Positions 8,424 through 61,100 of a DNA stretch of 64,000 bases are shown piece after piece (position 1 is the stretch's first letter; the number at the start of each line of letters is the position of its first letter). The notes below the pieces were generated by a model. That model worked only from the letters and a program-made list of their open reading frames with translations. It searched no databases and was not told the DNA's origin. The stretch is from contig JAPLTX010000004.1 in NCBI GenBank assembly GCA_026397915.1, positions 1 through 64,000 on the forward strand. The letters run 5' to 3'. The position numbers were made by a program, and so were the translations under genes. This DNA comes from Verrucomicrobiota bacterium. GTDB taxonomy: Bacteria; Verrucomicrobiota; Verrucomicrobiia; CAIQCK01.

Positions 8424-9086
8424 ATGACCTCCATGTTGTCAAATCTCACAATCCCTCAACTTCAGAAAGAAGCGGCGGACTTTGCACGGATCGAGTCCAA
8501 GCACTCAGAACCGAGCCTTTACGGCACGGACAACGGCAAGAAGGTGGGCACGTATCTGGAACACAAATTCCAAGAACACCTCAAAGTTCGCTACAAGTAT
8601 GTTCGTGGCAGTTCCGCTGAAGGGATTGACTTCCCACAACTTGAAGTTGACATCAAAGTCACGAGCAGCAAACAACCACAGTCCTCCTGTCCTTTCGATA
8701 GTGCTCGGCAGAAGATTTATGGGCTTGGGTATTCCCTGTTGGTCTTCGTGTATGACAAACACGACGATCCGAAAACGCGCTCGGCAAATTTGGAAATACT
8801 CCACACTGTTTTTGTAGAACGGGAGCGCACGGCGGACTATCAGACAACTTCGGGATTGCGACGACTTCTCGACAATAACGCGAACGAAGACGACATCGTC
8901 GCATTCTTCGAGGAAAGAATGCTTCCGGTGGAGGACATCGCTGCCCGGAAACTTGCTGAAGAAGTGCTGAAAACACCACCAGGAATTGGATATCTGACCA
9001 TCTCGAACGCTCTGCAATGGCGGCTGCAATACAAGAGGGTTATTGACGAAGCCGGCAAAGTTGGCGGCATCCTGCGGCTCGTATGA
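8424..9086 (+). CDS. Putative type II restriction endonuclease, PD-(D/E)XK fold
   Basis: 220 aa from the ATG at 8424 (8433 is an alternative). The segment EGIDFPQLEVDIKVTSS fits a PD-(D/E)XK site: D69, then D76-x-K78. The start resembles restriction enzymes that pair with an N6-adenine methyltransferase, and the stop overlaps the methyltransferase start by 4 bp (ATGA). Base composition is visibly less G+C-rich than the flanking secreted-protein genes, which suggests transfer. The specific family and recognition site are not recognised. Confidence 0.7.
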   Translation: MTSMLSNLTIPQLQKEAADFARIESKHSEPSLYGTDNGKKVGTYLEHKFQEHLKVRYKYVRGSSAEGIDFPQLEVDIKVTSSKQPQSSCPFDSARQKIYGLGYSLLVFVYDKHDDPKTRSANLEILHTVFVERERTADYQTTSGLRRLLDNNANEDDIVAFFEERMLPVEDIAARKLAEEVLKTPPGIGYLTISNALQWRLQYKRVIDEAGKVGGILRLV

Positions 9087-43487: not shown

Positions 43488-44303
43488 TCATGACGTTTCT
43501 TCGTCAGACGGTGCCGGATTGTCGCTTGATTGGCTTTCTTTGTCAGGGGAGGGGGTGGTTTGATCTGCTTTGATTTGGTTTGATTCACTTTGAGGACCAC
43601 AGCCGCAGGGTTGATCGTTGCTGTCGAAACCGGGCGGCCCCATGGTATGTTTTGGCCTCTCGCCAAACATGAGACGCACGAGCAGTTTCATCCTCTCTTC
43701 ACTCGTCTTATAACCACGACAAATCTCATGCCGGATTTCCTCATGGCTGGCCCATTCCCAGAATTCCTCGATCCGCTCGTGCACCGTGCGCTCCCGCATG
43801 GCAGCTTGGTGTTCGCGTTCCAGTTCGAGCCTTTTGTGCTCAATCTGCAGCCGCTCCGCGTTCTGATCACCGCGCCTCAACTCCACCAGATCAACGCACA
43901 GGGCGTGCAGACTCTCATAATTGATCTTGCCGTCGGTGCCTTGGGTTTTGAGGTCGGCCAGCACAACGCTCAACCGCGCCGTCAGGAGACTGGCCATGGC
44001 GTCGGTGAGGGAGCCGGGCGTGGCGTCCTTGATCTGGGCCGCGTCATCGAGCGTCTGGTTCACCGAGGCGAGGATTTCCTGATGCGCAAGCCACTGCTTA
44101 TATCCGCCCCGGCGCCATTGCGACATGTTCTGTTCCGAAACCGGCTGACTATGAAACTGGGCCGCCATGACGGCTTTCGTTTCCGGCAACGCGTTGAGCC
44201 ATTTCAGGAGGCTGGGGCCGGATTCGCCATCGCGGAGGCGGCGGTTCAGTTCGGTTTTCACTTCGAGAGGAAGCCGGGCAATTTTTCCGGTCCGTGTAGT
44301 CAT
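43488..44303 (-). CDS. Phage Mu gp27/DUF3486-like protein
   Basis: 271 aa. Starts KIARLPLEVKTELNRRLRDG, then LLKWLNALPETKAVMAAQF and QNMSQWRRGGYKQWL, the helix-turn-helix-like block of the Mu gp27 family (small-terminase-type). The middle is a long charged helix (ERLQIEHKRLELEREHQAAM). The C-terminal 60 residues are disordered and acidic, ending SDNPAPSDEETS. No capsid or large terminase genes are nearby, so it is a solitary or domesticated phage-type gene. Start of the accessory island. Confidence 0.72.
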   Translation of the reverse strand: MTTRTGKIARLPLEVKTELNRRLRDGESGPSLLKWLNALPETKAVMAAQFHSQPVSEQNMSQWRRGGYKQWLAHQEILASVNQTLDDAAQIKDATPGSLTDAMASLLTARLSVVLADLKTQGTDGKINYESLHALCVDLVELRRGDQNAERLQIEHKRLELEREHQAAMRERTVHERIEEFWEWASHEEIRHEICRGYKTSEERMKLLVRLMFGERPKHTMGPPGFDSNDQPCGCGPQSESNQIKADQTTPSPDKESQSSDNPAPSDEETS

Positions 44304-44312
44304 GGGAGTCTC

Positions 44313-44354
44313 TTTGGAGTGTTGGAATTCTGGAGTGATGGAGCATTGGGGATG
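44313..44354. repeat. GGAGTGTTGGAATTCTGGAG low-complexity repeat
   Basis: TTTGGAGTGTTGGAATTCTG followed by GAGTGATGGAGCATTGGGGA, in the gap between two island genes. It is the reverse-complement type of the CCAACACTCC string found inside thiC (4254-4285). Confidence 0.45.
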
Positions 44355-44356
44355 GT

Positions 44357-44587
44357 TCAGTAGATTCGGCGGTAGCTGTAATGGCCGCGGATTTCACGGG
44401 CGTGGAAGCCCCCCTTGGAGTCCGCGTCCAAGAAGTCGTGGAAAACCGATCTTGGCACGTCGTCGTATTCGTAAATCGAGCCGTTGTGGAACGCGACGGT
44501 GAGCGTGCCGCTCCAGAAGTCGTGTCCGATCTCGGCGATATTGGAAGACACGACCGGAATCATGCCACTGAATGCCAGCGTGCTCAT
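44357..44587 (-). CDS. KTSC-domain protein
   Basis: 76 aa. VSSNIAEIGHDFWSGTLTVA, then FHNGSIYEYDDVPRSVFHDF and GGFHAREIRGHYSYRRI match the KTSC domain, a short beta-rich unit common in phage and mobile-element proteins. Its start overlaps the stop of the 44584 gene by 4 bp (ATGA). Role unknown. Confidence 0.82.
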   Translation of the reverse strand: MSTLAFSGMIPVVSSNIAEIGHDFWSGTLTVAFHNGSIYEYDDVPRSVFHDFLDADSKGGFHAREIRGHYSYRRIY

Positions 44588-44838
44588 TTGCAGGCCTCCT
44601 CGTTGTCATGGGCGACCAGTTGCCGGATCAGCGCGCGAACGCTCGCAACCTCAACCAACCGCTCCACACGGTTCCGGCCGGGAGAAAAGGCCAGCATCGA
44701 GTTGACCTTGCGTTCGGCAACCAAGCGGAACGCCGCCGTCCGACTGATGCCGAAGCGACCTGGCACGTCAGCCATCGCGCAAAACCGCGAATCACGGGTC
44801 GGTTTGCCGCAAGAATTATTTCTCAGCTTCATGCCCAT
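44584..44838 (-). CDS. Small helix-turn-helix (excisionase-like) protein
   Basis: 84 aa. FGISRTAAFRLVAERKVNSM, followed by NRVERLVEVASVRALI, reads like a small HTH_17/MerR-type DNA-binding domain. ATGA-overlaps the KTSC gene downstream, so they share an mRNA. A 200-bp AT-rich stretch lies upstream (44848-45043, with no visible gene). Could be a repressor or a recombination directionality factor. Confidence 0.6.
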   Translation of the reverse strand: MGMKLRNNSCGKPTRDSRFCAMADVPGRFGISRTAAFRLVAERKVNSMLAFSPGRNRVERLVEVASVRALIRQLVAHDNEEACK

Positions 44839-45043
44839 GATTATATGACAAGTAACTATCGGACGGTCGCTGACGCGTCATCATATTGATGTAGCGCGAG
44901 TTATGTATTAACTCGGCATTGTTCAGAAAATGCGGCCGACCTGTGGCCGAGGGTTCGCCGGGTTCCGGCCGCAAAAACACCCCCAAAGGTGAGTCAAGGG
45001 ACTTTTTGAAATTTTTTGAAAAAAGCAGGGACGCGGCGAGCTA

Positions 45044-45814
45044 TTATCCCGCGGGTTGTTGTGCCGCGCGCAGATAGTTGCGGAGCGACTTCCGGGTCAC
45101 GCGCAGATTGCGGCAGCCAACACGGACTCTTTCAAGCTGTCCATCGCGCATCAAGTTGCGAACCGTCTGCTGGGAAACACCCAGCTTGGCTGCAACCTCC
45201 CGCGTCGTGAACAAGTCTTTCCTCTCCAGGTGGCACCCGGGCGGAGCGTGCTTCTGCCGGGGACGCCAGATCAAGCGTCCAAACAGCGGGCTTTCCAACA
45301 GAGACTTTCTCTTCACTGCCCACCGGAACGGGGAAAGACAATAGGCCACTACCTGTCTTTTGCGAATGGCCCGGCAAATCGTGCTGACACTGCACGTGAA
45401 GAGTCCGGACAACCCCCTTGGCGTGAACACATCCTGATCGGGCAGCCGGACCTTTTGCCGGAGCCGGCGCAGCCTGTAGAACTCCCGCGGATGTTGGGTC
45501 ACATAAGGAGCTGCTGCGTCGGCCGCTGCGAGCAGCGCCAGCACCTGTGCTTTTGCCACCAGCCAGCGATTGCCTCTCTTTCGCGCCCGCAGCAGACCGC
45601 TTGTGATCCAAGCCAGCACCGGTGTTTTGGAAAGACCCAGGAACCGGGCCAGCTTTCCGGCGGTCATGAAGCACGGCGCGGATTCAAGCCGTTGCCGCAT
45701 CTCATGCGACCGCGCCCGAATTGCGTCGAGCGCGGGCGAGCTTTTCCATCGGAGCTTGTGATGCCTTGTCCGCATGGCGTGAAAAACCGGGTTTTCAATA
45801 CCGCGATCTTCCAC
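45044..45814 (-). CDS. Protein with three tandem helix-turn-helix domains
   Basis: 256 aa. Three HTH_17-like units can be read: FMTAGKLARFLGLSKTPVLA (about 50-95), VFTPRGLSGLFTCSVSTICR (about 125-170) and LFTTREVAAKLGVSQQTVRN (about 205-250). Each has the pattern helix-turn-helix followed by a hydrophobic x-x-R-V-G-type wing. The third ends NYLRAAQQPAG. Excisionase-type domains normally occur singly, so a triple array is unusual. No signal or enzymatic motif. Probably a DNA-binding regulator of the island; target unknown. Confidence 0.65.
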   Translation of the reverse strand: MEDRGIENPVFHAMRTRHHKLRWKSSPALDAIRARSHEMRQRLESAPCFMTAGKLARFLGLSKTPVLAWITSGLLRARKRGNRWLVAKAQVLALLAAADAAAPYVTQHPREFYRLRRLRQKVRLPDQDVFTPRGLSGLFTCSVSTICRAIRKRQVVAYCLSPFRWAVKRKSLLESPLFGRLIWRPRQKHAPPGCHLERKDLFTTREVAAKLGVSQQTVRNLMRDGQLERVRVGCRNLRVTRKSLRNYLRAAQQPAG

Positions 45815-45975
45815 AGAGTGCGAGCCGGATCATTGTGGATTTCTGCTTCTCGGTCTTAACTCAACACCCTTCGCGTTGCTGCGGCGAAATGAGGTCGTCG
45901 AGCGGGTTTCGGCGGCGGCGCATCGGTCGCGTTCGCGGCTTGTGTTCTGCGCGGAGCGCGCTACACAATAACCGC

Positions 45976-47670
45976 ATGGGAAAGAAACCCTCGCCCAAAA
46001 ACACCGCGCAGCCTTCCAAACCTGTAGCGGCGAATTCCGAGAACCCTGTAGCGGCGGTCTCCGACCGCCGAAATGTAGGACAGGCGTCCCGCCTGTCCAT
46101 TCCCGACGATCAGACAGGCGGGACGCCTGTCCCACTCTCAGGCCGGCAGTCGCAGACCGCCGCTACAGTTGCAACGCCCACCGGCAAACCTTCCGCCCTC
46201 CTCGACACCCGCGTCATCTACTGCGGCGACAACCTCGAACAACTCCGCAAGCTCCCCGACGCCTGCGTGGACCTCATCTACATTGACCCGCCCTTCAACT
46301 CCAACCGCAACTACGAGGTCTTCTGGGGCGAGACCAAAGAGGTTCGCGCGTTCGTTGACCGCCACGAATCCACCAAGGCTTACATCGAATACATGCGCCC
46401 CCGCTGCGTCGAGATGGCCCGCGTCCTCAAGAAAACCGGCTCCTTCTACTACCACTGCGACTGGCACGCCTCCCACTACGTCAAGGTCATGCTCGACCAA
46501 ATCTTCGGCGAGAATAACTTCATCAACGAAATCATTTGGAAACGCCAATCGTCGCACAACGACGCGAAGCAAGGCTCGAAGCATCTTGGCCGCGTGCATG
46601 ACACGCTCTTTCTTTACGCGGGCAGTTCAGAGGATTACACGTTCACTCACCTCTACCGCCCTTACAATCCCGAATACGTGGAGGACTTTTACCGCTACAC
46701 AGAGCCAGGGACGGGAAGGCGCTACCGTTTGGGCGACATTACAGCACCCGGAGGCGGCGCGCCATCGAAGGGCAATCCGCATTACGAGTTTCTCGGCGTG
46801 AAACGCTACTGGCGTTACAGCAAAGAGCGGATGGAAGAACTCTACAAAGAAGGGCGCATTATCCAAACAAAGCCGGGCGCTGTTCCGCAATACAAGCGTT
46901 ACTTGGACGAAGGCAAAGGCACGCCGCTTGGTTCGGTCTGGGATGACATCCTACCACTTCACGGCAGCGACACAGAGCGGCTCGGCTATCCGACACAAAA
47001 ACCTCTGACGCTGCTCGAACGCATCCTTCAGATGAGCAGCAACGAGAACGACATCGTGTTGGATGCGTTCTGCGGCTGCGGGACGGCGTTGGTGGCGGCG
47101 CAGAAGTTGAAGCGGCAATGGATCGGCATAGACATCTCGCCGACGGCCTGCCGCGTAATGGCGAAGCGGTTGAAAGACAAGAATGTTTGCGGCATGAGGG
47201 AGGATGAAGACCTTTGGGCCATCGGGCGCGGCTTCATCGTCCGCGACCTGCCGTGGACGGAGGAAAAGCTGCGCGCCATTCCGCCGTTCGAGTTCGAGAA
47301 CTGGGCGGTCATCGCGCTCGGCGGCCGAAAGAACAAGGCGCAAGTCGGCGACAAGGGCATTGATGGGCGCATCTTCCCCGTCACGGCGCTGGACAACGTC
47401 CGCGAAGCCGGGGCGGATGAGCTGGCGCTGGAAGAGCGCTTCTATGCGATGCAGGTGAAGCAGAAGGACAAGACCGGCCGGCCGGACATAGACGCCTTCG
47501 AGACGGCGATGCGGCGTGCGAAATGCGAGAAAGGCTTCTTCGTTTCCTTCGACTACTCAAGCGATGCGATGCACGAAATAGACCGTTTCTTCAAAGAAGA
47601 ACACCGCATCATCATCCCGCTCACCGTCCGCGAGATTCTGGACGAGGAGATCGCGAGGAAGCTGGCGTGA
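45976..47670 (+). CDS. Fused DNA methyltransferase (beta class) - Mrr-type restriction nuclease
   Basis: 564 aa from the ATG at 45976; the longer frame from 45721 was rejected because it lacks conserved sequence. Residues 15-67 are translated palindromic repeats. Then a methyltransferase with motif order IV (DPPF, 104-107) before I (DAFCGCGT, 363-370), i.e. beta class, N6-adenine or N4-cytosine. The C-terminal ~130 residues are Mrr-like: GDKGIDGR with D463 and YAMQVKQKDK with Q493-x-K495, then GFFVSFDYSSDAM. A single chain thus carries both modification and a candidate nuclease. The last 51 bp recur downstream. Confidence 0.85.
   Translation: MGKKPSPKNTAQPSKPVAANSENPVAAVSDRRNVGQASRLSIPDDQTGGTPVPLSGRQSQTAATVATPTGKPSALLDTRVIYCGDNLEQLRKLPDACVDLIYIDPPFNSNRNYEVFWGETKEVRAFVDRHESTKAYIEYMRPRCVEMARVLKKTGSFYYHCDWHASHYVKVMLDQIFGENNFINEIIWKRQSSHNDAKQGSKHLGRVHDTLFLYAGSSEDYTFTHLYRPYNPEYVEDFYRYTEPGTGRRYRLGDITAPGGGAPSKGNPHYEFLGVKRYWRYSKERMEELYKEGRIIQTKPGAVPQYKRYLDEGKGTPLGSVWDDILPLHGSDTERLGYPTQKPLTLLERILQMSSNENDIVLDAFCGCGTALVAAQKLKRQWIGIDISPTACRVMAKRLKDKNVCGMREDEDLWAIGRGFIVRDLPWTEEKLRAIPPFEFENWAVIALGGRKNKAQVGDKGIDGRIFPVTALDNVREAGADELALEERFYAMQVKQKDKTGRPDIDAFETAMRRAKCEKGFFVSFDYSSDAMHEIDRFFKEEHRIIIPLTVREILDEEIARKLA
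46023..46170. repeat. Cluster of palindromic repeats inside the methyltransferase N-terminus
   Basis: CTGTAGCGGCGGTCTCCGAC and its partner GTCGCAGACCGCCGCTACAG face each other, enclosing ACAGGCGTCCCGCCTGT and its mate ACAGGCGGGACGCCTGT. The whole unit is translated in frame (PVAAVSDRRNVGQASRL, then GGTPVPLSGRQSQTAAT). Same families at 17254-17282 and 48012-48035. Confidence 0.85.
47620..47670 (+). repeat. 51-bp gene-tail repeat, copy 1 (in-frame end of the fusion gene)
   Basis: Encodes LTVREILDEEIARKLA and the stop codon at the end of the methyltransferase-Mrr gene. Copies of the same length occur at 47959-48009 and 54901-54951. Differences between copies fall mostly at third codon positions. 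Confidence 0.92.
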
Positions 47671-47948
47671 ATGCGGATGAATTGAAGCGGTTGAAAGATG
47701 ATTTGGACAACGCCCGCGTGCTCGACGGAGATTTGATTCTGACAGATGGATCATCCGCCCTCGTGAATGCGTGGATTCGTGAGAATCCGGAACTGGCCGA
47801 GAAAATCAACACGGCCGCTTTGCAGCGATACTTCTCAAATCAAATCGCCGCAGGCCAAAAACCCAGCGTCGAAGGCTTTGACTACAATGATCCTAAGAAT
47901 CTGATGTCAACGGCACGGGAAATCGCCCGCGCTTTGTTGAAGTATTGA
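47667..47948 (+). CDS. Small hypothetical protein coupled to the methyltransferase-Mrr gene
   Basis: 93 aa from a GTG at 47667 that overlaps the preceding stop (GTGA). Starts NADELKRLKDDLDNARVLDG and ends KNLMSTAREIARALLKY; acidic, soluble, no recognised domain. Coupling suggests a role with the R-M fusion (specificity, regulation or immunity), which is inference. It lies between copies 1 and 2 of the 51-bp repeat. Confidence 0.65.
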   Translation: MNADELKRLKDDLDNARVLDGDLILTDGSSALVNAWIRENPELAEKINTAALQRYFSNQIAAGQKPSVEGFDYNDPKNLMSTAREIARALLKY

Positions 47949-47958
47949 GCCTTGGCCA

Positions 47959-48009
47959 CTGACGGTGCGCGAGATTCTGGACGAGGAGATAGCGAGGAAA
48001 CTGGCGTGA
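47959..48009 (+). repeat. 51-bp gene-tail repeat, copy 2 (free-standing)
   Basis: Same 51 bp as 47620-47670 with five substitutions, including stop; in reading-frame terms it still encodes LTVREILDEEIARKLA. It is not attached to any gene: the preceding ORF ended at 47948. A palindromic repeat (48012-48035) follows at once. Confidence 0.92.
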
Positions 48010-48011
48010 TC

Positions 48012-48035
48012 TGTAGCGGCGGTCTCCGACCGCAC
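48012..48035. repeat. TGTAGCGGCGGTCTCCGACCGC palindromic repeat
   Basis: Half-unit of the palindromic family present in the methyltransferase N-terminus (46023-46170), placed two bases after the second 51-bp repeat. Confidence 0.7.
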
Positions 48036-48148
48036 GGTGACAGGCGTCATGCCCTCACAGACAACCACCGTGGCAAGCGCCTGCGTTGTCTTCTTCAGAA
48101 TTCGTGCCGTCCGAGAGTTCTTTTCGTCTTCATCGGTCCTCAATGTCT

Positions 48149-49159
48149 TCAGCACGGAGCCGCTTCTCCGTGCGGATACCGGTAGTCGGCGCCCGCGTTG
48201 GTTGACACGCGCTTGGTCGAGCCGTCCTCCAATCGGTAAACGTAGAGTTGGCCCTTCCCTGTTTGGGTGGAGTGATAGACCACCGCGGACTCGCCATCAA
48301 TCCAGCGCGCATACGCGAACCATTTGTTTTCCCCGGCCTCGTTGGCAAACGGTTTGAGGTTCGTGATCGTGCGCTGCTGCGCGTCGAAATCCCCAATATA
48401 GAGCGTGTGTCCGGGTTCTCCGGTTTTGAGTCCTTTCTGTCGCTCGAAGGTGATGTATTCGAAGCAAATCTTCTTCTCGCTGGGCGAAATGCTCATGCGG
48501 TGAAAGATGCCTTTGGCCGTCAGTTCGCACTGGACGCGTTCGTAAACGGGTTTTGGCCCTTCGCGGCGCGTCAGCAAGTAGATCCCCCGACCCTGTTTCG
48601 GCGGAGTCGCGGTTACGAGAATCCGGCCATCCATGAGGCACGAGTGCCCCCAATTAGGGACACTGGGGTCGGTGATGGCCACCTCTTCGCCCGGTTGGCC
48701 GCCCACTTTGCCTTGCATCACGATGAACCAGCCCCTCTTGTCGTTCTTCCGGTTCCAGATCGGCGTGTTAAGGCCGTCGCGCGTCCACGTTGGATTGAAG
48801 TCCGTGAACGTGCCGTCGGTCATTTGGTGGAAGCCCGTGCCGTCGGCGTTGAGGGTGAAGATCGCGGTTCTCCAGTTCACCGTCACCGGATCGTCCTTGA
48901 GCCGGCGAAAGCAAACCAGCATGTCGCCAGTTTTGGACCAGGACGGTTTGAAATCCCAGGGTTGACCAGAGGTCAGCGGCTTGCCTTCCGGCTGGCCCGG
49001 TTCGTTCACATGAATCTGGCCGTTGCAGAAATACGAAATCCGGGAAGCACGCGGTGGCTTCGCCTCGCCGGCGTAGGCTAAGAATGGTGTGGCTGCGGTT
49101 GCCTGCGCGACCCTTTTCAGGAACTCGCGCCGGCTCAGTTGTTCGTTGTGTGTCTTCAT
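48149..49159 (-). CDS. Tat-exported TolB-like beta-propeller protein
   Basis: 336 aa from the ATG at 49159. N-terminal twin-arginine signal SRREFLKRVAQATAATPFLA, then a beta-propeller with TolB/PD40-type blades (WSKTGDMLVCFRRL; FTLNADGTGFHQMTDG; ARWIDGESAVVYHS). Resembles oligogalacturonate-lyase-type propellers, but the catalytic residues were not verified. Sits 14 bp downstream of the hydrolase gene (49174-50166), the two forming an operon. Exported folded; role unknown. Confidence 0.75.
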   Translation of the reverse strand: MKTHNEQLSRREFLKRVAQATAATPFLAYAGEAKPPRASRISYFCNGQIHVNEPGQPEGKPLTSGQPWDFKPSWSKTGDMLVCFRRLKDDPVTVNWRTAIFTLNADGTGFHQMTDGTFTDFNPTWTRDGLNTPIWNRKNDKRGWFIVMQGKVGGQPGEEVAITDPSVPNWGHSCLMDGRILVTATPPKQGRGIYLLTRREGPKPVYERVQCELTAKGIFHRMSISPSEKKICFEYITFERQKGLKTGEPGHTLYIGDFDAQQRTITNLKPFANEAGENKWFAYARWIDGESAVVYHSTQTGKGQLYVYRLEDGSTKRVSTNAGADYRYPHGEAAPC

Positions 49160-49173
49160 GGTGTTGTGTGTTC

Positions 49174-50166
49174 TCATGGTGCTTGTTTCTTGAGATGCCG
49201 GTTGAACCATTCCAGTTCGAGGCGCGTGGCTTCCTCGAAGCCCTCGCGGTAGATGCCGTAGTGAGTCATGCCCCTGAGGACGTGATAGGCCACCGGCACG
49301 CGGCTCTTTTTCAGAATCTCTGCGACCCGCTCGCCGTTTTGGTGGCGGTCCATCAACTCCTCGTTCTCAGCGTCAATGAGGATCATCGGCACGCGGATTT
49401 TCTCGGCGGCCTCAATGGCGTTGAAGCCGATGCTTTTTACCGGGTTGACCCGCATGTTTTCATATCGCGCCATCTTCCCACCCATCTTGCCGGTCTCGAA
49501 CGGGACAGGCTCGGTCTCGGCGCGCGCTTGCTTGGTGGCCAGACCGTAAGCGTATTGCTCGGCTGCTGGGCCGCGCCCGCCGCCCATGCCGCCCACTTGC
49601 GCGGCGACGCATTTGACGCGCGGGTCGTTGCCGGCCGTCCACGTCACCAGCCCGCCACCGTAACTGGTGCCCAGGATGCCGATGCGTTGCGGGTCAACGT
49701 TCGGCTCGCCCACGAGGAAACTGATCGCGGCGCGGATGTCCGTTGTTTGGTCGGCGAAATCCATCTGCCAACGGATCGCCCGCGCGCGAACGGTGACCTC
49801 GCCTTTGGCGTCGGGCTTGGGCTGTTTGTCGAGCGACATCAACCGGCTGTCGCTCTCGCCCCAGCCGCGGTAATCGAACGCGAGGAACACGAACCCGGCT
49901 TGCACGAACCGCGGCGCGAGTCTTTGTGGCGGGCCTTTCTTCGTGCCGCCGGTGCCGGAGCAAAACAACACGGCGGGGAGTTTTTTGTCCTTCGTCAAGC
50001 CCTTCGGCAGATAGAGGTCGCCTGCCATCCGCACGCCGTCGCTCCAGATGATCACATCGCGCTTCTCGACGTTGCCCGGCAACGGTGTGGGCTGCTGAAG
50101 TTGAGCCGCCTCCATGACCACAGCGAAAACAGCAGACAGGGTGATAATTGTGATGGTGGTCTTCAT
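49174..50166 (-). CDS. Secreted alpha/beta hydrolase (dienelactone-hydrolase/acetyl-xylan-esterase type)
   Basis: 330 aa from the ATG at 50166, with signal peptide (MKTTITIITLSAVFAVVMEA). YLPKGLTKDKKLPAVLFCSG, LAFDYRGWGES, GTSYGGGLV (nucleophile serine) and the C-terminal GMTHYGIYREGF histidine form a full triad. VDAENEELMD-like segment (MILIDAENEELM) supplies the acid. Acts outside the cytoplasm on an ester; substrate unknown. Confidence 0.83.
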   Translation of the reverse strand: MKTTITIITLSAVFAVVMEAAQLQQPTPLPGNVEKRDVIIWSDGVRMAGDLYLPKGLTKDKKLPAVLFCSGTGGTKKGPPQRLAPRFVQAGFVFLAFDYRGWGESDSRLMSLDKQPKPDAKGEVTVRARAIRWQMDFADQTTDIRAAISFLVGEPNVDPQRIGILGTSYGGGLVTWTAGNDPRVKCVAAQVGGMGGGRGPAAEQYAYGLATKQARAETEPVPFETGKMGGKMARYENMRVNPVKSIGFNAIEAAEKIRVPMILIDAENEELMDRHQNGERVAEILKKSRVPVAYHVLRGMTHYGIYREGFEEATRLELEWFNRHLKKQAP

Positions 50167-50520
50167 GGTCTTGTCCTCGCTTCTTCGTTCCATCTTATCT
50201 GGCGACGTGTTCAGGTCAAAACGGATATTCGATTGAAAGATTCTGCGGTTGATAACACCGGAACTCGCACGTAGATGCTCTTTCCATAGTCAGCCATGTC
50301 TCCTCAGTTGCTGGTCGGAATCCCAGACCGCATCCTCCTCGTCCCGGTTATCCGGTTTCACGGTCGCGGAGTCTATTCTTGCGAAAACGGCTGGCGAGAA
50401 ATGTTTTTGCGTCGTTCTTGGCATAGGCGGTGTCGCTACGGCACAATACGGCTTCGGTGACTGTCTCCAAAATGGCTCGTTTATGAAAGCAGCGACTGCG
50501 AAATAAGGAAAGGCGCGTTG
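50167..50520. other. Intergenic region between divergent hydrolase operons
   Basis: 354 bp with no convincing gene. It must contain promoters for both directions. AAGGAAAGGCGC at 50505-50516 is a good ribosome-binding site for the gene starting at 50521. No operator or repeat identified. Confidence 0.6.
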
Positions 50521-51819
50521 GTGAGAAGATCGTGTTCCATATCTGCTGTGCGGTTTTGGTTTCCTCTCCTGCTGGTCTGCGTCGGGGCGCAGTTCGCGTT
50601 GGCGGCCGAGCCGCCGATTGATGTTGAGCACGGCAAGCAACTGATGCGGAAGTTTCAAGCCGGCGAAACGCTGACACCTGAGGAGCAAGCTTACCTCGAC
50701 CGCGTGCGCCAGGAGATTCGCAAGCGTGCTGCCGGCAAGCGGTCCGGCCCTTCTTCCAAAGGCGCGGCACCGCGCCCGTTTGTGGTGAGCACAAACGACT
50801 GGAGCGCGTTGGTGCCGATCACCGAGATGACGTCATCATACAAGGGCGAGGATGGCGGGCTTTACGGCGGCGGCAATAACGAGCTGCCGGAAGCGCATCG
50901 CGCTACTTATGTGAAGGAGTCGGAAAAAATCCGCCCACTCGACGCCGAAGGCCGGCCAACAGACGACGGAAAGATCGGCTTGATCACGATTGGCTTCTCC
51001 AATCCATCCATCGAGTCGGAAGATTTCAAGCGCGCGGCGGACGCCGACCCGCAGAAATCTCCGCGCGTGATCATCGTCAACGGCTGTATCGGCGGGCGCT
51101 CGGCGGTGATGTGGGCTTGGGATGGCGCGGCCATCCTGCCGAAGGTCGAGCAGGAGCGGCTCGACAAGCAGATGGATGTCGTCCACATGCCGAAGGGCAT
51201 TCGTAAAAGCAGTCCCGGCCTCGAAAAGGACACGTGGCCGACGCTGGCGAAGCGGATCGAAGCGGCGGGTCTTTCGCCGAAGCAGGTGCAGGCGTGCTGG
51301 CTGAAGCACGTCGAGGCCAATCCGAAACCGCTCGGCGAATTCCCTGCGCACGCGCGGGCGTTGCAGGCCGACATCACCGCCATCCTCAACATCGCGCGGC
51401 ATCATTACCCGAACCTGCGCGTCGTGTATCTGTCGAGCCGCACGTTTGGCGGCTGGTCGGGACGCGAGAGCGGCAGTCCGGAGCCTTACGCCTACGAATC
51501 GGGCTTCGGCACGCGATGGGTCGTGCAAAGCCAGATTCGCGGCGACGCGCAACTCAACTACGACCCTGCGCACGGCGAGGTGAAAGCGCCGCTCGTGCTC
51601 TGGGGACCGTATCTGTGGGTGTGCGGCAATGTGCCACGCAAGCTCGATGGCCTCACTTGGACGGAGGGCGACGTGCGCGCCGATCGGCTGCATCCCAACG
51701 ACGCAGGATGCAAGAAGACCACCACGCTGTTGTTGAACTTCTTTAAGACCGATGTGGGAACCAGCCGGTGGTTCCTCAAGCCGGGCGCAAAAGCGGAAAC
51801 CGTGCCGTTGCCGAAATAA
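50521..51819 (+). CDS. Secreted protein of unknown family, SGNH-hydrolase-like C-terminal end
   Basis: 432 aa from a GTG at 50521, which follows the AAGGAAAGG ribosome site; a TTG three bases earlier is possible. Signal peptide (VRFWFPLLLVCVGAQFALAA), helical segment (LTPEEQAYLDRVRQEIRK), then GLITIGFSNPSIESEDFKRA and near the end DRLHPNDAGCKKTTTLLLNF, which resembles the Asp/His block of SGNH esterases. A GDSL block was not seen. Same class of secreted hydrolases as its neighbours; start of a run of five plus-strand genes. Confidence 0.65.
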   Translation: MRRSCSISAVRFWFPLLLVCVGAQFALAAEPPIDVEHGKQLMRKFQAGETLTPEEQAYLDRVRQEIRKRAAGKRSGPSSKGAAPRPFVVSTNDWSALVPITEMTSSYKGEDGGLYGGGNNELPEAHRATYVKESEKIRPLDAEGRPTDDGKIGLITIGFSNPSIESEDFKRAADADPQKSPRVIIVNGCIGGRSAVMWAWDGAAILPKVEQERLDKQMDVVHMPKGIRKSSPGLEKDTWPTLAKRIEAAGLSPKQVQACWLKHVEANPKPLGEFPAHARALQADITAILNIARHHYPNLRVVYLSSRTFGGWSGRESGSPEPYAYESGFGTRWVVQSQIRGDAQLNYDPAHGEVKAPLVLWGPYLWVCGNVPRKLDGLTWTEGDVRADRLHPNDAGCKKTTTLLLNFFKTDVGTSRWFLKPGAKAETVPLPK

Positions 51820-51835
51820 ACAGGAGCCTGAACCC

Positions 51836-52813
51836 ATGAACCTGCCTCAACTGATTCAGTCATTTCGCTTTGGCCTGCTTGGTTTGCTGGTGGCAGCCAT
51901 CGCTGTCATTGGCGCCGAGCCAGCGCCATCCGCCCCGGCCAGACCAGACGCGCGGCGGCCGATGAACCGCCGGCCGATGCCGAAGGCCGAGTGGTTGGAC
52001 CCCGACCACGGCGCGCCCAATGGCACACAATACAAGACGTTTCAAAGCAAGGTGCTGGATCGCGAAGTCAGCTACCTCGTTTGGCTGCCGCCGGGCTACG
52101 AGCAGGAGAAGAAGCGATACCCGGTGATCTACTGGCTGCACGGCATGGGCGGAAACCAGCGCGGTGGCGCAACGATGTTTGTTCCGCACGTCGAGGCGGC
52201 CATCAAAGAAGGCGTGTTGCCGCCGGTCATCGTGGTGCTCGTCAACGGCATGGTGAAAAGCTTCTACTGCGATTCGACCGACGGCAAGTGCCCAATGGAA
52301 AGCGTGATCATTAAGGATTTGATTCCGCACGTGGACGAAACCTATCGCACAATCGCCAAGCGCGAGGGCCGCGTGATCGAAGGCTACTCGATGGGCGGCT
52401 ACGGCGCGGGGCACCTGGGCTTCAAGTATCCCGAACTGTTCGGAACGGTGGTGATCAATGCGGGCGCGTTGATGGATCCGAGCCTGACGAACATTCCACG
52501 AGAAGGACCGATGTTCGGGGTGTTCGGCGCCGACAACGCGCGCCGGGTGGCCGAGCATCCGCGAGAATTGGCGCGCAAGAACGCCGACAAGCTGCGCGAC
52601 AAGACGCGCATTCGCATCGGCTGCGGCTCGCTGGACAACCTGCTGCCGCGGAATCAGGATTTGCACGAGGTGCTGACCAAACTCGGCATCAAGCACGAGT
52701 ATGAAGTCGTTCCCGACGTGGCCCACGAATCGCAGCTCTACTACAGGAAGCTCGGAACAAAGGCTTTTGAGTTCCATCGAAAAGGCCTCGCCGCGCTGGA
52801 CGAGACCAAATAA
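51836..52813 (+). CDS. Secreted esterase, EsteraseD/feruloyl-esterase-like (PF00756 type)
   Basis: 325 aa from the ATG at 51836, preceded by AGGAGCC. Signal peptide (MNLPQLIQSFRFGLLGLLVA). VIYWLHGMGGNQRG, EGYSMGGYGAGHLGF (nucleophile serine), DNLLPRNQDLHEVL (acid region) and PDVAHES (histidine) match the esterase D family. Likely releases acyl or feruloyl groups from polysaccharides or other esters. Follows the SGNH-like gene by 16 bp. Confidence 0.85.
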   Translation: MNLPQLIQSFRFGLLGLLVAAIAVIGAEPAPSAPARPDARRPMNRRPMPKAEWLDPDHGAPNGTQYKTFQSKVLDREVSYLVWLPPGYEQEKKRYPVIYWLHGMGGNQRGGATMFVPHVEAAIKEGVLPPVIVVLVNGMVKSFYCDSTDGKCPMESVIIKDLIPHVDETYRTIAKREGRVIEGYSMGGYGAGHLGFKYPELFGTVVINAGALMDPSLTNIPREGPMFGVFGADNARRVAEHPRELARKNADKLRDKTRIRIGCGSLDNLLPRNQDLHEVLTKLGIKHEYEVVPDVAHESQLYYRKLGTKAFEFHRKGLAALDETK

Positions 52814-52910
52814 GTAATGCTGCGTGAGGAAGGCGGTTGACTCTCGTGGCAGCCGAGAACATCCTGCCGAGACAGTGGTGTGTGTTTTTAATTACAAAAA
52901 GGAGCGAATG

Positions 52911-53234
52911 ATGAACTGGAAGAAACTGGTCGTGTCAGCGGTGTCCGGATTGATGGTGCTGGGTCTGGTGACGGCGGTTGCCGGAGCAGCGGAGGAAAAG
53001 GCAGCGCAAACCAAGACCGGCACGGTGAAGAAGGTGGATGTGGAGGCGAAGCAAATCGTCGTCATGGCGGCGCGCGAGTTGTCGTTCACGATCACGGACA
53101 GCACCAAGATTCAGCAGCATGGCAAGGCCGTGAAGCTCTCCGACATCAAGGTGGATGCCAACGTCTCGGTGGAATACGTGAAGGACGGCGACAAGCGCAC
53201 GGCGAAGAAGATCGTTCTGCTAAAAGACAAGTGA
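52911..53234 (+). CDS. Small secreted protein (DUF5666-like OB-type)
   Basis: 107 aa from the ATG at 52911 with AAAAAGGAG just upstream. Signal peptide (MMNWKKLVVSAVSGLMVLGLV), then a small beta-barrel-like segment GTVKKVDVEAKQIVVMAARE and STKIQQHGKAVKLSDIKVDA typical of DUF5666-type periplasmic proteins. No catalytic motif. Stop overlaps the next start (GTGA). Confidence 0.7.
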   Translation: MNWKKLVVSAVSGLMVLGLVTAVAGAAEEKAAQTKTGTVKKVDVEAKQIVVMAARELSFTITDSTKIQQHGKAVKLSDIKVDANVSVEYVKDGDKRTAKKIVLLKDK

Positions 53235-54004
53235 GAACCACGCTCTCTTGCGCGCTCGCCGCGCTGGTGATGGCCGCGTGCATCGCGCACGCTGCCGCGC
53301 CGGCGCGCAAACTGGCGCCTGGCAGCACCGTGACTGTTACTTTCCCTGACATACCGCCTACGTTCCACGCGGTATCGCAGAAGAAGGCCGTGAAAGCGCA
53401 GATGACGGTCTTTCTGCCGACGAACTACAATCCGGGCAGGAAACATCCCCTCTTGATTTTGCTCGGCGGCGGCGACGGCGGCGCGGGCGGAAACCCCGGG
53501 GTTGCCCGTGCTATTTCCGGCGAGCGCGATTTTATTTGTGCCTCGATGCCGCTCTTCAAAGCCGACCCGAAAACGGGCTTCATCATGGTTGACGCGGACG
53601 GCAAATACATGTGGCCGTTCTTCAAAACCATGCTGGCGAAGCTGGAGGAAATGGTGCCCAACATCGCCCCGGAGCATCGGGTTCTGGGCGGCTTCTCCAA
53701 CGGCGCGCACGCCACGTCGGCGCTCTTGGACGAGTCGGATGGTGAAGTGGCGCGGCGGTTCTCCGCGTTCCTCTTTGTGGAAGGCGGTGGCAAGCTGCAT
53801 CGCTACGACCTGCTGAAGGGCAAGCCGTTCCTGATGGTCTCCAGCAACGCGAAATCGCGGCCCCGGGCGCAGGAAATATGCGGCGCCGCGAAGGCTGCCG
53901 GGGCAAAGACGAGTTTCCTCTGCGAGGATGTCGGCAAGCATTGCTTTCCGGAGTCCGCGTATCCGGCGGTGCGGACGTGGCTGCGCGGCCCGGCGCTGGA
54001 ATGA
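53231..54004 (+). CDS. Secreted alpha/beta hydrolase-like protein
   Basis: 257 aa from a GTG at 53231, overlapping the preceding stop by 4 bp. Signal peptide (MRTTLSCALAALVMAACIAH). LILLGGGDGGAGGN, VLGGFSNGAHATSALLDES (nucleophile serine) and EDVGKHCFP (histidine) suggest a hydrolase related to the esterase/PHB-depolymerase group, with a less clear acid residue. Translationally coupled with the DUF5666-like gene. Confidence 0.72.
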   Translation: MRTTLSCALAALVMAACIAHAAAPARKLAPGSTVTVTFPDIPPTFHAVSQKKAVKAQMTVFLPTNYNPGRKHPLLILLGGGDGGAGGNPGVARAISGERDFICASMPLFKADPKTGFIMVDADGKYMWPFFKTMLAKLEEMVPNIAPEHRVLGGFSNGAHATSALLDESDGEVARRFSAFLFVEGGGKLHRYDLLKGKPFLMVSSNAKSRPRAQEICGAAKAAGAKTSFLCEDVGKHCFPESAYPAVRTWLRGPALE

Positions 54005-54025
54005 CGGAGGATGACAGGAGGAACG

Positions 54026-54904
54026 ATGACACACTGGCTCGCTGCACGATACGCTCTCATGGCGCTGCTGATGGCCGCGTCCCTTTTGCCGGTCGCCGGC
54101 GAACCCATCCAAATCCCGGACAGTGCGCAGGTGCAGACCGCCACCACGCACCCGATGAAATACTATATTTCATTGCCCAGGAACTGGTCGGCGAACCGGA
54201 AGTGGCCGGTGCTCGTGGCCCCCAACGCCCACTATGGCGACAAGGGAAAACACATCGCGTCCTTCGCGGCGCAACGGGACGCGCGCAAGGCCGGCTTCAT
54301 CCTCGTGGCGCCCTTGGTCATCAATGCCGACCGCGTGGCCGACATGGCGGAATATCGCGGTGCGGTCGCCGACGCCATTAGCGCGGCGGATGCGGCCAGT
54401 CCCGCCGGGAGCAGAAGACCGGACCGAAATGATGCCGCCCGGGCCAAGTTTGATTCGGAGGGAATCCGGGCCATCCTCAAGGATGTTCAGAAACTCTATC
54501 GCGGCGAGGAGAAGGTCTATATCACCGGCTTCTCGTCCTCGACGCATATCGCCTACATGTTTCTCTTTGCCCACCCCGAACTGCTCAAGGGGGCCATCAT
54601 CAATTCCGGGGTTTACTTGGGGCGGGGAGTGGATGAAGCCCATATCCCCTTCCTGAACTCGCCGGAACGCGCCAAGCTCGCGATCAAATATATCATCGGT
54701 GAAAAAGACCCCGGCTACAAAAAATGCTCGGAGAACTGGGGGGAAGTGAAAGCTAAACTGCTTCGTTACGGGCACCCTGCGGCCAAGATACAGATGGAAG
54801 TCATCAAGCAGGGCAATCCGGAACGTTTGAGCGCAGGTCATAATTGGTTCCCAACAAGGATTTTTGATTTTTGTGCCGCCGTCGAAATGAGCCAGGCGCG
54901 CTGA
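54026..54904 (+). CDS. Secreted alpha/beta hydrolase-like protein ending in the third 51-bp repeat
   Basis: 292 aa from the ATG at 54026, preceded by AGGAGGAACG. Signal peptide (MALLMAASLLPVAGEP). YYISLPRNWSANRKWPVLVA, YITGFSSSTHIAYM (candidate nucleophile) and GHNWFPTRI (histidine) show the fold; the canonical GxSxG is replaced by GFSSS, so catalysis is less sure. The stop codon at 54902-54904 lies within the first bases of the 51-bp repeat. Confidence 0.7.
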   Translation: MTHWLAARYALMALLMAASLLPVAGEPIQIPDSAQVQTATTHPMKYYISLPRNWSANRKWPVLVAPNAHYGDKGKHIASFAAQRDARKAGFILVAPLVINADRVADMAEYRGAVADAISAADAASPAGSRRPDRNDAARAKFDSEGIRAILKDVQKLYRGEEKVYITGFSSSTHIAYMFLFAHPELLKGAIINSGVYLGRGVDEAHIPFLNSPERAKLAIKYIIGEKDPGYKKCSENWGEVKAKLLRYGHPAAKIQMEVIKQGNPERLSAGHNWFPTRIFDFCAAVEMSQAR

Positions 54905-54951
54905 TAGTCCGCGAGATTCTGGACGAGGAGATAGCGAGAAAGCTGGTGTGA
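54901..54951 (+). repeat. 51-bp gene-tail repeat, copy 3 (free-standing)
   Basis: Same length as 47620-47670 and 47959-48009, with the same LTVREILDEEIARKLA-type sense frame except for a T-to-I change. It starts inside the stop codon of the hydrolase gene at 54026 and is followed by a block of hairpins. Confidence 0.92.
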
Positions 54952-55300
54952 GAGAAAAGCGAATCCCAACGGGATTCAAATCCATCAGCCCAGGGTTGCG
55001 AGGCACGAGCTACCCTGGGTGAACATCCAAGAAACATCACTACCCTGAAAGGGTTGGATCATCTCCTCGCCGATGATGATGGAGCGCCATGTTATTCCCG
55101 CCACGGCGTGGCGGGCTACCAAACGATGCTGCAACTCCGTTGGAGTTGAATTTGTTTTAGGATGCATACCCGGCGTAGGCCGGAGGACCGGCCAACGCCG
55201 GGCTGAGTGATGGCCACCTCGTTGAGGTGGCGTGCGGCTTGACATGGCCCGTGTGCGCGCTACAACTGGCGCGCAATTCAAACATGGAGAACTTCCGAAT
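54952..55300. other. Gene-free region with seven consecutive hairpins, leader of the CsgG gene
   Basis: No gene. Perfect or near-perfect hairpins: 54961-54977, 54989-55019, 55042-55055, 55097-55115, 55132-55148, 55169-55202 and 55214-55230. Examples: GAATCCCAACGGGATTC, CAACTCCGTTGGAGTTG, CCACCTCGTTGAGGTGG. Short loops of AAC/GTT type recur. The CsgG-family gene starts at 55301 with a weak upstream ribosome site (GGAGAACTTCCGA). Confidence 0.85.
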
Positions 55301-56761
55301 ATGAACCACTTGTCTTTGGCATCCACTTTACTCGCCGTCGTTGTCCTGGTTTCGGGATGCGCCACCTCGGACAGCGGGACGGGCGCACCGTCCGCGCAGC
55401 AGCGACGCGTGGCGCGGCTCGGCATCCTGTCACAATTGCCGCCTTACTACGGGCCAAAGAAGCTCGTTGCGGTCATGGATTTCCAGAACAAATCCAACTA
55501 CAAGGGCAAGCTGGAACTGGGCACCGGCATGGCTGACTCGTTGACCGATGCGATCGTTCGCAGCGAGCGGTTCATCGTGGTCGAACGCCAGCAAATCCGC
55601 GACGTGCTCAAGGAACAGGACTTCGCCAAGACCGGCCGCACCGTCGAGGCCAGCGCGCCGAAGATCGGACGGGTGTTGAACACACAAGCCATGATCTTTG
55701 GCTCCGTGGTGGATTTCAGCGAGACACAGCAGCAGAACCAGGGTTTCGGTTATCAGGGAATCTCGCTGAGTTTCGCGCACGCGGAAGCCAAGGTGACCAT
55801 CGCGATCCGGCTGGTGGATTCGGCGACCGGACAGGTGCTTGACAGCGAACAGGTGCAGGGCAAGGCGGAAAAGAACGCGGTGGGCATTGCCTACACGGAG
55901 AAGGATTTCAATTTTGGCACATCCGCTTTTGCGAAGACGCCGCTGGGCCAGGCCACGCAGGAGGCGATTGACAAGGCGGTGGTGTTCATCTGCCGGCGAA
56001 TGGAGAAGGTGGTATGGGAAGGCCGTGTCATCGAGACCAAGGGCGGCGACATCTACATCAACGCCGGCGAAGAAAAGGGCATCGCTGCGGGCGACTGTTT
56101 CGTGGTCTTCCACGAAGACGAAGGGATGATTGACCCGTCCACCGGCCTGCAACTCGGCGCACCGCGCAAGGAAATCGGCGCTGTCGAAGTGACCGAATTG
56201 CAGCCGAAGTTCTCCATCGCGAAAGTCATCCGGGGAACCGGCTTTGCCCGCAAGGATGCGGTGCGTTTCGTGCCGGCTGCGCAGGTCAAGGGCGCGGCGC
56301 CCGTCACGACCCAGACCGTGCCGCCACCGCCTGACACGCCTCGCGTGACCAAGGCGCGGGAGTTGCTCAGCCGCAATGATCGTGGCGGCGCCCTGCGCGA
56401 GGTGGATAACGCCTTGAAAGAAAACCCCAATGACGCGGCCGCTGCCGTGCTGAAGGTTCAGTTGGAATCGGCGCGCAAGAATTTCCGCGCCGCCGCCGCT
56501 GCCGGAGCGCATCTGGCCTCACTGCGCCCCGACGATCCTGCTGCGCTGCTGCTGGCCGCGCGCGCGCAATCCGATGCCGGCGATTTTGGCGGGGCCGTTG
56601 CCGCACTCAACGGTTTGTTGACTAAAGATCCGAACCATGTCGAAGCGCTGGTGCTGCGCAGCCAGGCTCTGGCCGAAACCGGCGACGGCAAGGGTTCCTA
56701 CCGCGACATGCGCCGCGCGATCAATCTCGGCTATCAGCCGTCCACCGCAGGCGGAAAGTAA
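55301..56761 (+). CDS. CsgG-family lipoprotein with C-terminal TPR-like repeats
   Basis: 486 aa from the ATG at 55301. Lipoprotein signal with lipobox LVSGC. CsgG-type domain: KKLVAVMDFQNKSNYKG, SLTDAIVRSERFIVVERQQI, VTIAIRLVDSATGQVLDSEQ. A second beta domain follows (GRVIETKGGDIYINAGEEKG), then a Pro-rich linker (TVPPPPDTPRV) and TPR-like helices (ARELLSRNDRGGALREVDNA). CsgG proteins form outer-membrane secretion channels for curli-like fibres; no curli subunit genes are seen here. The extra domains are not typical of E. coli CsgG. Confidence 0.88.
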   Translation: MNHLSLASTLLAVVVLVSGCATSDSGTGAPSAQQRRVARLGILSQLPPYYGPKKLVAVMDFQNKSNYKGKLELGTGMADSLTDAIVRSERFIVVERQQIRDVLKEQDFAKTGRTVEASAPKIGRVLNTQAMIFGSVVDFSETQQQNQGFGYQGISLSFAHAEAKVTIAIRLVDSATGQVLDSEQVQGKAEKNAVGIAYTEKDFNFGTSAFAKTPLGQATQEAIDKAVVFICRRMEKVVWEGRVIETKGGDIYINAGEEKGIAAGDCFVVFHEDEGMIDPSTGLQLGAPRKEIGAVEVTELQPKFSIAKVIRGTGFARKDAVRFVPAAQVKGAAPVTTQTVPPPPDTPRVTKARELLSRNDRGGALREVDNALKENPNDAAAAVLKVQLESARKNFRAAAAAGAHLASLRPDDPAALLLAARAQSDAGDFGGAVAALNGLLTKDPNHVEALVLRSQALAETGDGKGSYRDMRRAINLGYQPSTAGGK

Positions 56762-58117: not shown

Positions 58118-61100
58118 CTAATACGCCGTAGCGGCGTTGCGCAGTTCGGGATGACGCCAGGCGCGGACGCGCTTCCGCATGTGCTCGAAGGCAAGATAGA
58201 CCACCGGCGTGGTGAAGAGCGTGAGCGCCTGGGAAACGATCAACCCGCCGACGACGGCGATGCCGAGCGGCCGGCGCAACTCGGAGCCGGTGCCCAAACC
58301 AATCGCCAACGGCAGCGCGCCGAGCAGCGCGGCCATCGTGGTCATCATGATAGGCCGGAAGCGGATGACGCAGGCTTTGTAGATCGCCTCTTCCGGGCCA
58401 AGTCCTTCGTTCCGCTCGGCGTCGAGCGCAAAGTCCACCATCATGATCGCGTTCTTCTTCACGATGCCCATCAGGAGGATGATGCCGATGAACGACACCA
58501 CCGAAAGGTCGTTGCCGGTGAGCATCAGCGCCAGCAGCGCGCCAACGCCAGCGGACGGCAGCGTGGAGATGATCGTGATCGGATGGATCAGGCTTTCGTA
58601 GAGCACGCCGAGCACGATATAGACCGCCAGGAGCGCCGCGCCGATCAGCACCGGCATGTTGGAGAGCATGGCTTGGTAGATTTTGGCCGTGCCTTGGGGG
58701 CTAAAGTTCACACGCGCCGGCATGTGCAGTTCCTCCTTGGCTTGTTTGATCAGTTCATCCGCCTCGCCGAGCGAGACGCCGAGCGCAAGATTGAACGAGA
58801 CGGTAATGGCGGGGAATTGTCCCTGGTGGTTGACCTGAAGGTAGGCATTGCTGTGCTCGATCCGGGCGACAGCCGACAGCGGCACCTGTTTGCCGGTGTT
58901 GGATTTGACGTAAATCCTGTCCAGCGAATCCGGCCCCAACTGGAATTCCGGGTTCACTTCGAGAACGACGTGATGCTGGTTGTAGCGTTTGTAAATGGTG
59001 GAAACCTGCCGCTGGCCGAATGCGTCGTAGAGTGTGTTGTCCACCGCCAGCGGCGACACGCCGAGGCGCGCGGCCGCGTCGCGGTTCACAACGACGTTGG
59101 CTTGCAGGCCGCGCGTCTGCTGGTCGCTGTCAATGTCCTTGAGCTGCGGGATCGTGCGGAGTTTTTCCACCAGCCGCATTGCCCAGTAGTTGAGTTCGGC
59201 GAGGTCGGCCGACTGGAGGGAATATTGGTATTGCCCGGCGCTGAGCCGGCCGCCGGTGCGGACATCTTGGGGAGATTGCAAGCGCAGTTCGATTCCCGGA
59301 ATGGTGCCGAGTTTGCGGCGGAGGCGGTTGATGATTTCGTCGGCGGAAACGCGGCGTTCGTTCCACGGTTTCAGCGTGATGAACATGCGGCCGTTGTTGA
59401 CGGAACCGGCGCCCGAGCTTGCCCCGGCGAATGAACCGAGCGTCAGCACGCCCGGGTCGGCGAGCACGATGCGCGCGACTCTTTCCTGGAGTTTGGCCAT
59501 CGCGTTGAAGGAGATGTCCTGCGCCGCCTTCGTGGAGCCAAACATAATGCCGGTGTCCTGCTGGGGGAAAAGTCCCGTGGGCACGATGGAGTAGAGCCAG
59601 ACCGTCGCCACGCACGTGGCCAGCGCGACCAACAGCGTGAAACCCTGGTGGCGCAACACCCAGCGCAGCGCGTGCTCGTAGCCGGCCAGCACAAAGTCAT
59701 ACACCGCCCCGCCGGCCCGGTAGAAACGGCCGGGCGGCCCGTAGGCGGCTTCGGCTTTCAGGAACCGCGAGCACATCATCGGCGTCAAGGTCAACGAGAT
59801 GACGCCGGAAACGAGGATCGCCACACTCAGCGTCACCGCGAACTCGTGCAGCAGCCGCCCGATCAACCCGCCCATGAACAGCAGCGGTATGAACACCGCC
59901 ACCAGCGACGTGCTCATGGAGATCACCGTGAAACCGATCTGCCGCGCGCCCTTGAGCGCCGCTGTAATCGTGCGTTCGCCCGACTCAATGTAGCGGAACA
60001 CGTTCTCGATGACCACGATGGCGTCGTCCACGACGAAGCCGACGGAGATGGTCACCGCCATCAGCGACAGATTGTCCACGCTGTAATCCAGCAGATACAT
60101 GCACGCAAACGTCCCCGTCAGCGCCAGCGGCACGGTCACGCAGGCGATGAACGTCGGCCAGAACCGCCGCAGGAAAAGAAAAATCACCATCACCACGAGG
60201 CTGATACTGAGCATGAGCGAGAACTGCACGTCGTTGACCGAGGCGCGGATGGTTTGCGTGCGGTCGCTGATGAGCAGGACCTTCACCGACGGCGGCAGCC
60301 ATTTCTCCGTCTGCGGCAGCATGGCGCGGACGCGATCCACGGTCTCAATTACGTTGGCGCCGGCCTGCTTGAACACGATGAGCAGCACGGCGCGCTGGGT
60401 GCCGATCCAGCCGGCCATGCGCGCATTCTCAGTGCCTTCGACGGCCTTGCCCAGCGCGCTGAGCTTGATGGGGACGCCGTTCTTCTGGGTCAGGATGAGC
60501 GACTGGTAACCTTTCGCCTCCTTGAGCTGGTCGTTGCTGTTGAGGGTGTAGAACGTGTGCTCGCCGTCCAAGCCGCCCTTCGGCGAATCCGCATTCACCT
60601 GTCCGAGCAGCGTGCGAACGTCTTCGAGGCTCAGCCCGGCTGACGCGAGCGCCACCGGATTCATTTGCACGCGCACCGCGGACTTTTCGCCGCCGGCGAC
60701 GATGACTTGGCTGACGCCCTCGACCTGGCTGAGACGCTGCGCAATGATGTTGTCGGCGTATTCATAGACCTGCACTGATGGCAACGCGTCGCTGACCATC
60801 GCCAGCACCATGATCGGCGTGTCAGCGGGGTTGACCTTGCGGTAGGTCGGCGGGTTCGGCAGGTTGATCGGCAGGTCGTTCGCGGCGGCGTTGATGGCCG
60901 CCTGCACGTCGCGCGCCGCGCTCTCCACCTTGCGGCTGAGGTCGAACTGGATGTTGATGGACGTGCCGCCGAGCGTGCTGACGGAGGTCAACTCGGCGAC
61001 GCCGGCGATCTGGCCCAGCCGGCGCTCCAACGGCGCAGCCAGCGAGGTCGCTACCGTTGTCGGGTCCGCGCCCGGCAGCGACGCGGAGACGGAAATATTC

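Follow-up and report, generated by a model that had tools for sequence, protein, structure and literature searches.

The window analysed here, a 64-kb stretch of a Verrucomicrobiota genome, carries an intact single-gene restriction-modification (R-M) system, in which a methyltransferase and an Mrr-type nuclease form one chain (M-Mrr). Pfam places N6_N4_Mtase at residues 98-395 (E=3e-49) and Mrr_cat at residues 435-536 (E=1.6e-5). The gene is followed by ORF93, which has no Pfam or PADLOC match and no homologue in 286 genomes of the class, and is therefore ruled out as a widespread partner of M-Mrr. Two bare copies of the M-Mrr gene tail stand further downstream (Table 1).

Several features surround the gene. 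REP-like palindromes at 46047-46068 (+) and 46146-46167 (-) lie in frame within the N-terminal linker (PVAAVSDRR...), and similar palindromes occur inside the M-Mrr coding sequences of two other loci (L004 and L018). Directly upstream, 43488-45814 holds minus-strand ORFs with one HTH_17/AbiEi_4 match and a putative terminase-small-subunit-like look, possibly a prophage remnant. RND-transporter-like genes at 58194-61228 and after 63130 are tandem paralogues with 68% DNA identity over 3 kb.

Table 1. Positions of the M-Mrr gene, its tail copies and adjoining features in the window
Feature	Position	Strand	Basis or remark
Intact MTase-Mrr fusion gene (M-Mrr), 564 aa	45976..47670	+	Pfam
Tail copy 1	47620..47670	+	Real 3' end of the M-Mrr gene, LTVREILDEEIARKLA and stop
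ORF93, 93 aa	47667..47948	+	GTG start overlapping the M-Mrr stop (GTGA)
Tail copy 2	47956..48009	+	Bare 3' relic, 7 nt past the ORF93 stop
REP-like element	48012..48033	+	Just after copy 2
Truncated Tat-signal aldo/keto-reductase-like gene, first ~39 codons	48017..48133	-	Homologue comparison
Esterase-like hydrolase	54011..54904	+	Complete to its natural C-terminus
Tail copy 3	54898..54951	+	Bare 3' relic; its GCGCTGA is the source of the hydrolase stop codon
Palindromic repeats directly after copy 3	54962..55230	.	Sequence

Three gene tails and their junctions

The original prediction described a tail of about 51 bp present three times, twice without its gene, and the copies are real. A 23-bp core is identical in all three, with these three matches and no others in the 64-kb window, while the expectation from shuffled sequence is 0. 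Across 51 bp, copies 1 and 2 agree at 46/51 positions, and copy 3 agrees with each of them at 45/51. Since copies 2 and 3 are as divergent from each other as either is from copy 1, recent duplication of a single scar is ruled out. The predicted limits of copies 2 and 3 hold except at their starts, which had been placed about 3 bp too late. Both copies lie outside any gene, as had been claimed, with stop-to-stop frames of just 22 and 27 codons. The proposal that substitutions fall mostly at third codon positions applies fully to the copy 1/2 pair (5/5 differences) but only partly to copy 3, which has two second-position changes, Thr to Ile and Ala to Val. Against a tail HMM of 60 positions, copies 2 and 3 match positions 44-60 only; no M-Mrr homology is found upstream of copy 3, and upstream of copy 2 there is only the copy 1 gene.

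The same-genus genome G003 has an intact M-Mrr gene (contig C31) whose 3' terminus and the DNA beyond it are collinear with copy 2 plus the REP-like element (87% identity over 79 bp), so that copy 2 resembles a genuine gene end still followed by its original 3' flank. The truncated gene right of copy 2, aldo/keto-reductase-like by its sequence, is intact with 345 aa in G003:C110; its cut end in the window overlaps the REP-like element and marks a rearrangement junction. At copy 3, the join falls exactly at the stop codon of the hydrolase. This gene is complete, because its G052 homologue (71% identity) has a C-terminus only a few residues away from its own, and truncation of the hydrolase is ruled out. 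The interval 43.5-56.8 kb differs from its counterparts in relatives, which span 4.5 kb (G003) and 7.5 kb (G002), and the region is therefore variable; the relatives' regions compared (L108-L115) contain no tail-like match.

Direct repeats around R-M genes have a precedent: R-M genes inserted with long target duplication are described by Nobusato et al. (2000), as cited in PMC3031569. An R-M gene is bordered by direct repeats in that account, as far as the citing text describes it, and here; there, however, the repeat is duplicated target DNA, whereas here the R-M gene's own end is what is repeated, in copies that are 10-12% different. Instead of near-identical repeats derived from an empty site, we find 5-6/51 differences and no tail in L108-L115.

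The palindromic repeats had been noted as immediate neighbours of both bare copies. They are real, as a REP-like element after copy 2 and another repeat after copy 3, and a repeat related to the latter is found both behind the bare tail of G082:C11 and, in L134, within a broken M-Mrr head that it interrupts. One could suppose that REP/RAYT-type transposition spread copies 2 and 3, carrying along 51 bp of the adjacent gene end, given repeats 2-10 nt past both copies and also past the L129 tail, and a RAYT-like ORF (Y1 transposase-like, by eye; L018, 9017-9487) directly downstream of the intact M-Mrr gene and REP elements of G003:C31. We regard this as highly improbable: the repeats belong to different families that are widespread in these genomes, two bare tails (C54 and G161:C55) have no repeat right after the stop, and the copies differ at 5-6 of 51 positions, so that there was no recent burst. 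The reported lack of a transposase or integrase also stands, with none recognised in the ORF lists of the window and no recombinase among the Pfam-scanned proteins.

M-Mrr relics in the genome and across the class

Searching for the tail in this genome and its relatives, as had been suggested, yields further M-Mrr relics. The window's own genome holds one intact gene and four relics, namely copies 2 and 3 and one each on contigs C49 and C54. The C49 tail, with two mismatches in the same-genome search, is part of a 79-aa ORF in which the first 65 codons of an M-Mrr paralogue are joined to the last 14 (MGKK...NLEQLRKLP followed by VHEILDEEIARKLA and the stop). Its joint lies in the GCTCNCCG microhomology, and since GCTC(C/A)CCG is common to both parents there, the fusion is an internal deletion with microhomology. 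C54 carries a fifth tail of about 20 codons without its gene. On another contig (L009, G000:C41, 1495-3114), a head-like part of a second MTase-Mrr family, an unrelated 249-aa ORF and an Mrr-like tail part stand in a row.

The same state recurs in other genomes. Tail-pattern and head-pattern searches of 384 genomes of the class, with relic limits set by HMM in place of raw tblastn extents, which overstate some relics (e.g. L129), give eight relics for the tail beside ten genes that are intact or seem so, i.e. 8/18 broken. The head pattern, the conserved TRVIYCGDN, gives 32 true places that were examined, with six further head places outside this count: contig ends cut 3 of them, and of the 29 that can be decided, 20 are broken and 9 intact. 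Broken M-Mrr genes are thus common, and at the head end they outnumber intact ones. All 20 broken heads keep at most ~100 of ~490 residues, and six of them end at one LRKLP stretch. Nine heads of the second MTase-Mrr family include two of full length, one cut by a contig end and six broken. On a wider scale, a GTDB genome scan gave 52 stretches, among others from Verrucomicrobiota, Planctomycetota and Acidobacteria. A few of these are chance matches to unrelated sequence; in the remainder, intact and 5'-truncated genes are again mixed.

Head-tail fusions are seen five times (C49, G283:C121, G265, G281:C25 and G082:C11). Only two of the five are in frame, as by chance, which rules out in-frame mini-genes kept as a selected protein. 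In L129/L121, the M-Mrr linker RDFVVRDLP is joined to the tail out of frame, making this an eroded pseudogene. As a separate observation, a repeat bounded by TTGTCATGTTGAG and GTCGAAACATCTCT coincides precisely with the point where an M-Mrr head is broken in each of two congeneric genomes (L193, 1376-1470; L030, near 1330), which suggests that it was either inserted at the breaks or caused them.

From these data we conclude, with a probability of about 0.83, that copies 2 and 3 are 3' scars of separate M-Mrr paralogues whose bodies were lost. Scars of lost paralogous R-M genes were among the explanations first offered, and the additional bare tails, head-only relics and head-tail fusions in this genome and the class support it well. 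Some observations weigh against the scar reading: three tails within 7.3 kb and four relics in one genome are many for a gene that few genomes of the class possess. Moreover, a single random deletion would not give heads that are skewed to short lengths, with six ending at LRKLP; the scar reading needs hot spots, selection or erosion in several rounds as well. Because the tail sequences are little decayed, the relics are either young or preserved by something.

The tail as coding sequence

An attachment core, or the recombination ends of an unknown element, had also been proposed for the tail. In such a scheme, the core would lie at the 3' end of M-Mrr, and integrating elements would regenerate the gene end and leave displaced copies at the far side, as do islands in tRNA genes. 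The arrangement of an intact gene followed by same-strand tail copies, in the window and in L152, and the presence of different genes between the tail copies would agree with it. However, among 28 M-Mrr genes the synonymous variation of the tail is 0.49 and that of the rest of the Mrr domain 0.46-0.50, implying that the tail is conserved as protein and not as DNA. Breakpoints differ between loci, with some clustering at LRKLP and PLTV; the length of relics varies between ~14 and >130 codons, heads occur as relics no less often than tails, and most bare tails elsewhere have no intact gene nearby. An integron test likewise recognised no integrase gene in the locus (ORF lists, Pfam), and the tail is ordinary coding sequence. 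On the strength of the free synonymous variation and the variable breakpoints we reject a site-specific core, which we consider very unlikely. The related gene-cassette idea fails in its site-specific form but survives in a changed one, in that unrelated genes, defence genes included, lie between or beside M-Mrr heads and tails.

A conserved RNA or a hidden exon was the remaining explanation for the tail, and we found no evidence for either. No Rfam match is present in window positions 45000-56000, and an RNA element is rejected on this ground; the changes follow codon positions, and the tail matches the C-terminus of a protein family. The probability of this explanation seems negligible.

Defence genes beside the relics and probable turnover of M-Mrr genes

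Broken heads frequently lead directly into another gene, in several cases a defence gene. By mechanical ORF calls, about 14/20 broken-head loci have an ORF on the same strand whose start is no more than some 150 nt away from the break or head-tail fusion. Among the matches of adjacent genes are a type IIG enzyme, a type II methyltransferase, a reverse transcriptase of DRT4/6-like type (PADLOC, E=6.5e-143), AbiU2 HEPN, RiboL-PSP HEPN, DUF4062 and an AAA protein of candidate system PDC-M56A. In at least four loci (L168, L215, L216 and L167), an unrelated ORF stands between an M-Mrr head and tail, and its stop is ~30 nt or less from the start of tail homology. Genes directly 3' of tails include ApeA, SLFN_AlbA_2, CAP12-TIR and DUF4062 proteins. 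Defence genes are known to cluster in genomes, and the enrichment beside relics, judged from raw neighbour counts, is suggestive only. In one locus (L020, G002:C17, 7569-8390 and past a tail near 8700), an ORF resembling nucleotide cyclases is followed by an Mrr relic of 137 aa and then by an ApeA HEPN gene, possibly a composite defence locus.

Where several ends are stacked, heads and tails are always on one strand. Three tails occur in the window and in L152, two each in L137, L150, L172 and L130, and two heads each in L134 and L193. L152 has an intact M-Mrr gene followed by two older tails, a layout parallel to copies 1 and 2 of the window. The window now reads M-Mrr, ORF93, tail 2; if the M-Mrr body were removed, the result would be a head-cargo-tail arrangement like that of L168.

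The retention of tails might be explained by translation. The tail would be kept because an accessory gene downstream has its ribosome-binding site and coupled start (GTGA/ATGA) there, with the body of M-Mrr lost and the downstream defence gene still expressed. Several intact or broken M-Mrr genes overlap or almost touch the next gene, such as ApeA HEPN (L141), SLFN_AlbA_2 (L131) and CAP12 TIR (L167), and the C49 and G283:C121 fusions end 20 and 3 nt before theirs. On the other hand, what follows copies 2 and 3 and the tails of L129 and G161:C55 is either repeats or no clear gene, and the five fusions are in frame no more than by chance. We regard this explanation, which concerns retention and is compatible with the scar reading, as doubtful.

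For loss with scars, the best-supported view is that single-gene M-Mrr systems come and go fast in these Verrucomicrobiota. Each loss would be a deletion or an in-place replacement with joints in short, unrelated or microhomologous sequence, and it is because the joints fall there that a short head, a short tail or both would remain. A new module would enter through homologous pairing at the conserved head and be joined illegitimately close to the old tail. On this view, the intact M-Mrr gene with its coupled accessory ORF93 now stands immediately before a tail left by a previous occupant (copy 2), and copy 3 would be the remainder of another M-Mrr gene, trimmed to the stop codon of the neighbouring hydrolase. 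Homology-facilitated illegitimate recombination combines one homologous anchor with one illegitimate joint; it would yield an intact gene plus an old tail, and it is a candidate mechanism here. We infer the order of events, the replacement through a homology anchor at the head and an illegitimate 3' join, and a series of such replacements in which illegitimate as well as homologous recombination exchanged M-Mrr genes in place.

Sequence divergence agrees with exchange at the ends. By a measure inflated by poorly conserved columns, synonymous divergence is 0.33-0.49 in the first 100 codons and the C-terminal third and mostly 0.53-0.64 in the middle, which fits recombination at the ends. Exchange of target-recognition domains occurs in R-M genes. 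Two intact M-Mrr paralogues of G003 conform to it, with near-identical ends and different middle (presumably target-recognition) parts, whereas in the M-Mrr relics the entire body has been lost or replaced by a non-R-M gene. Domain movement has been described in R-M genes of H. pylori (PMC3077401).

We tentatively raise another possibility, namely that M-Mrr genes are exchangeable docking loci for immunity, although we think it rather unlikely. Heads and tails would serve as recombination arms and as promoter and leader, and incoming defence genes (DRT, AbiU2/HEPN, DUF4062, other R-M) would replace the body; head-cargo-tail alleles would then spread by homologous recombination, leaving nested old ends.

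Chromosomal R-M genes undergo rapid turnover and frequent total loss, and how turnover can be high although these genes are rare on mobile elements is a question posed in the same study (Oliveira et al. 2014, PMC4176335). Fast turnover is common to that analysis and ours; there, total loss was inferred from gene counts, whereas here head and tail relics stay in place, often beside other defence genes. The point of interest is this broader pattern of hollowed R-M genes bordering other defence genes. Replaced R-M genes leave short recognisable heads and tails in situ, and broken heads exceed intact genes, so that which defence genes succeeded one another at a locus, and in what order, is readable like strata and testable in strain collections. 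The broken ends of M-Mrr, which rival or outnumber intact copies and often border defence genes, are a record of immune gene replacement.
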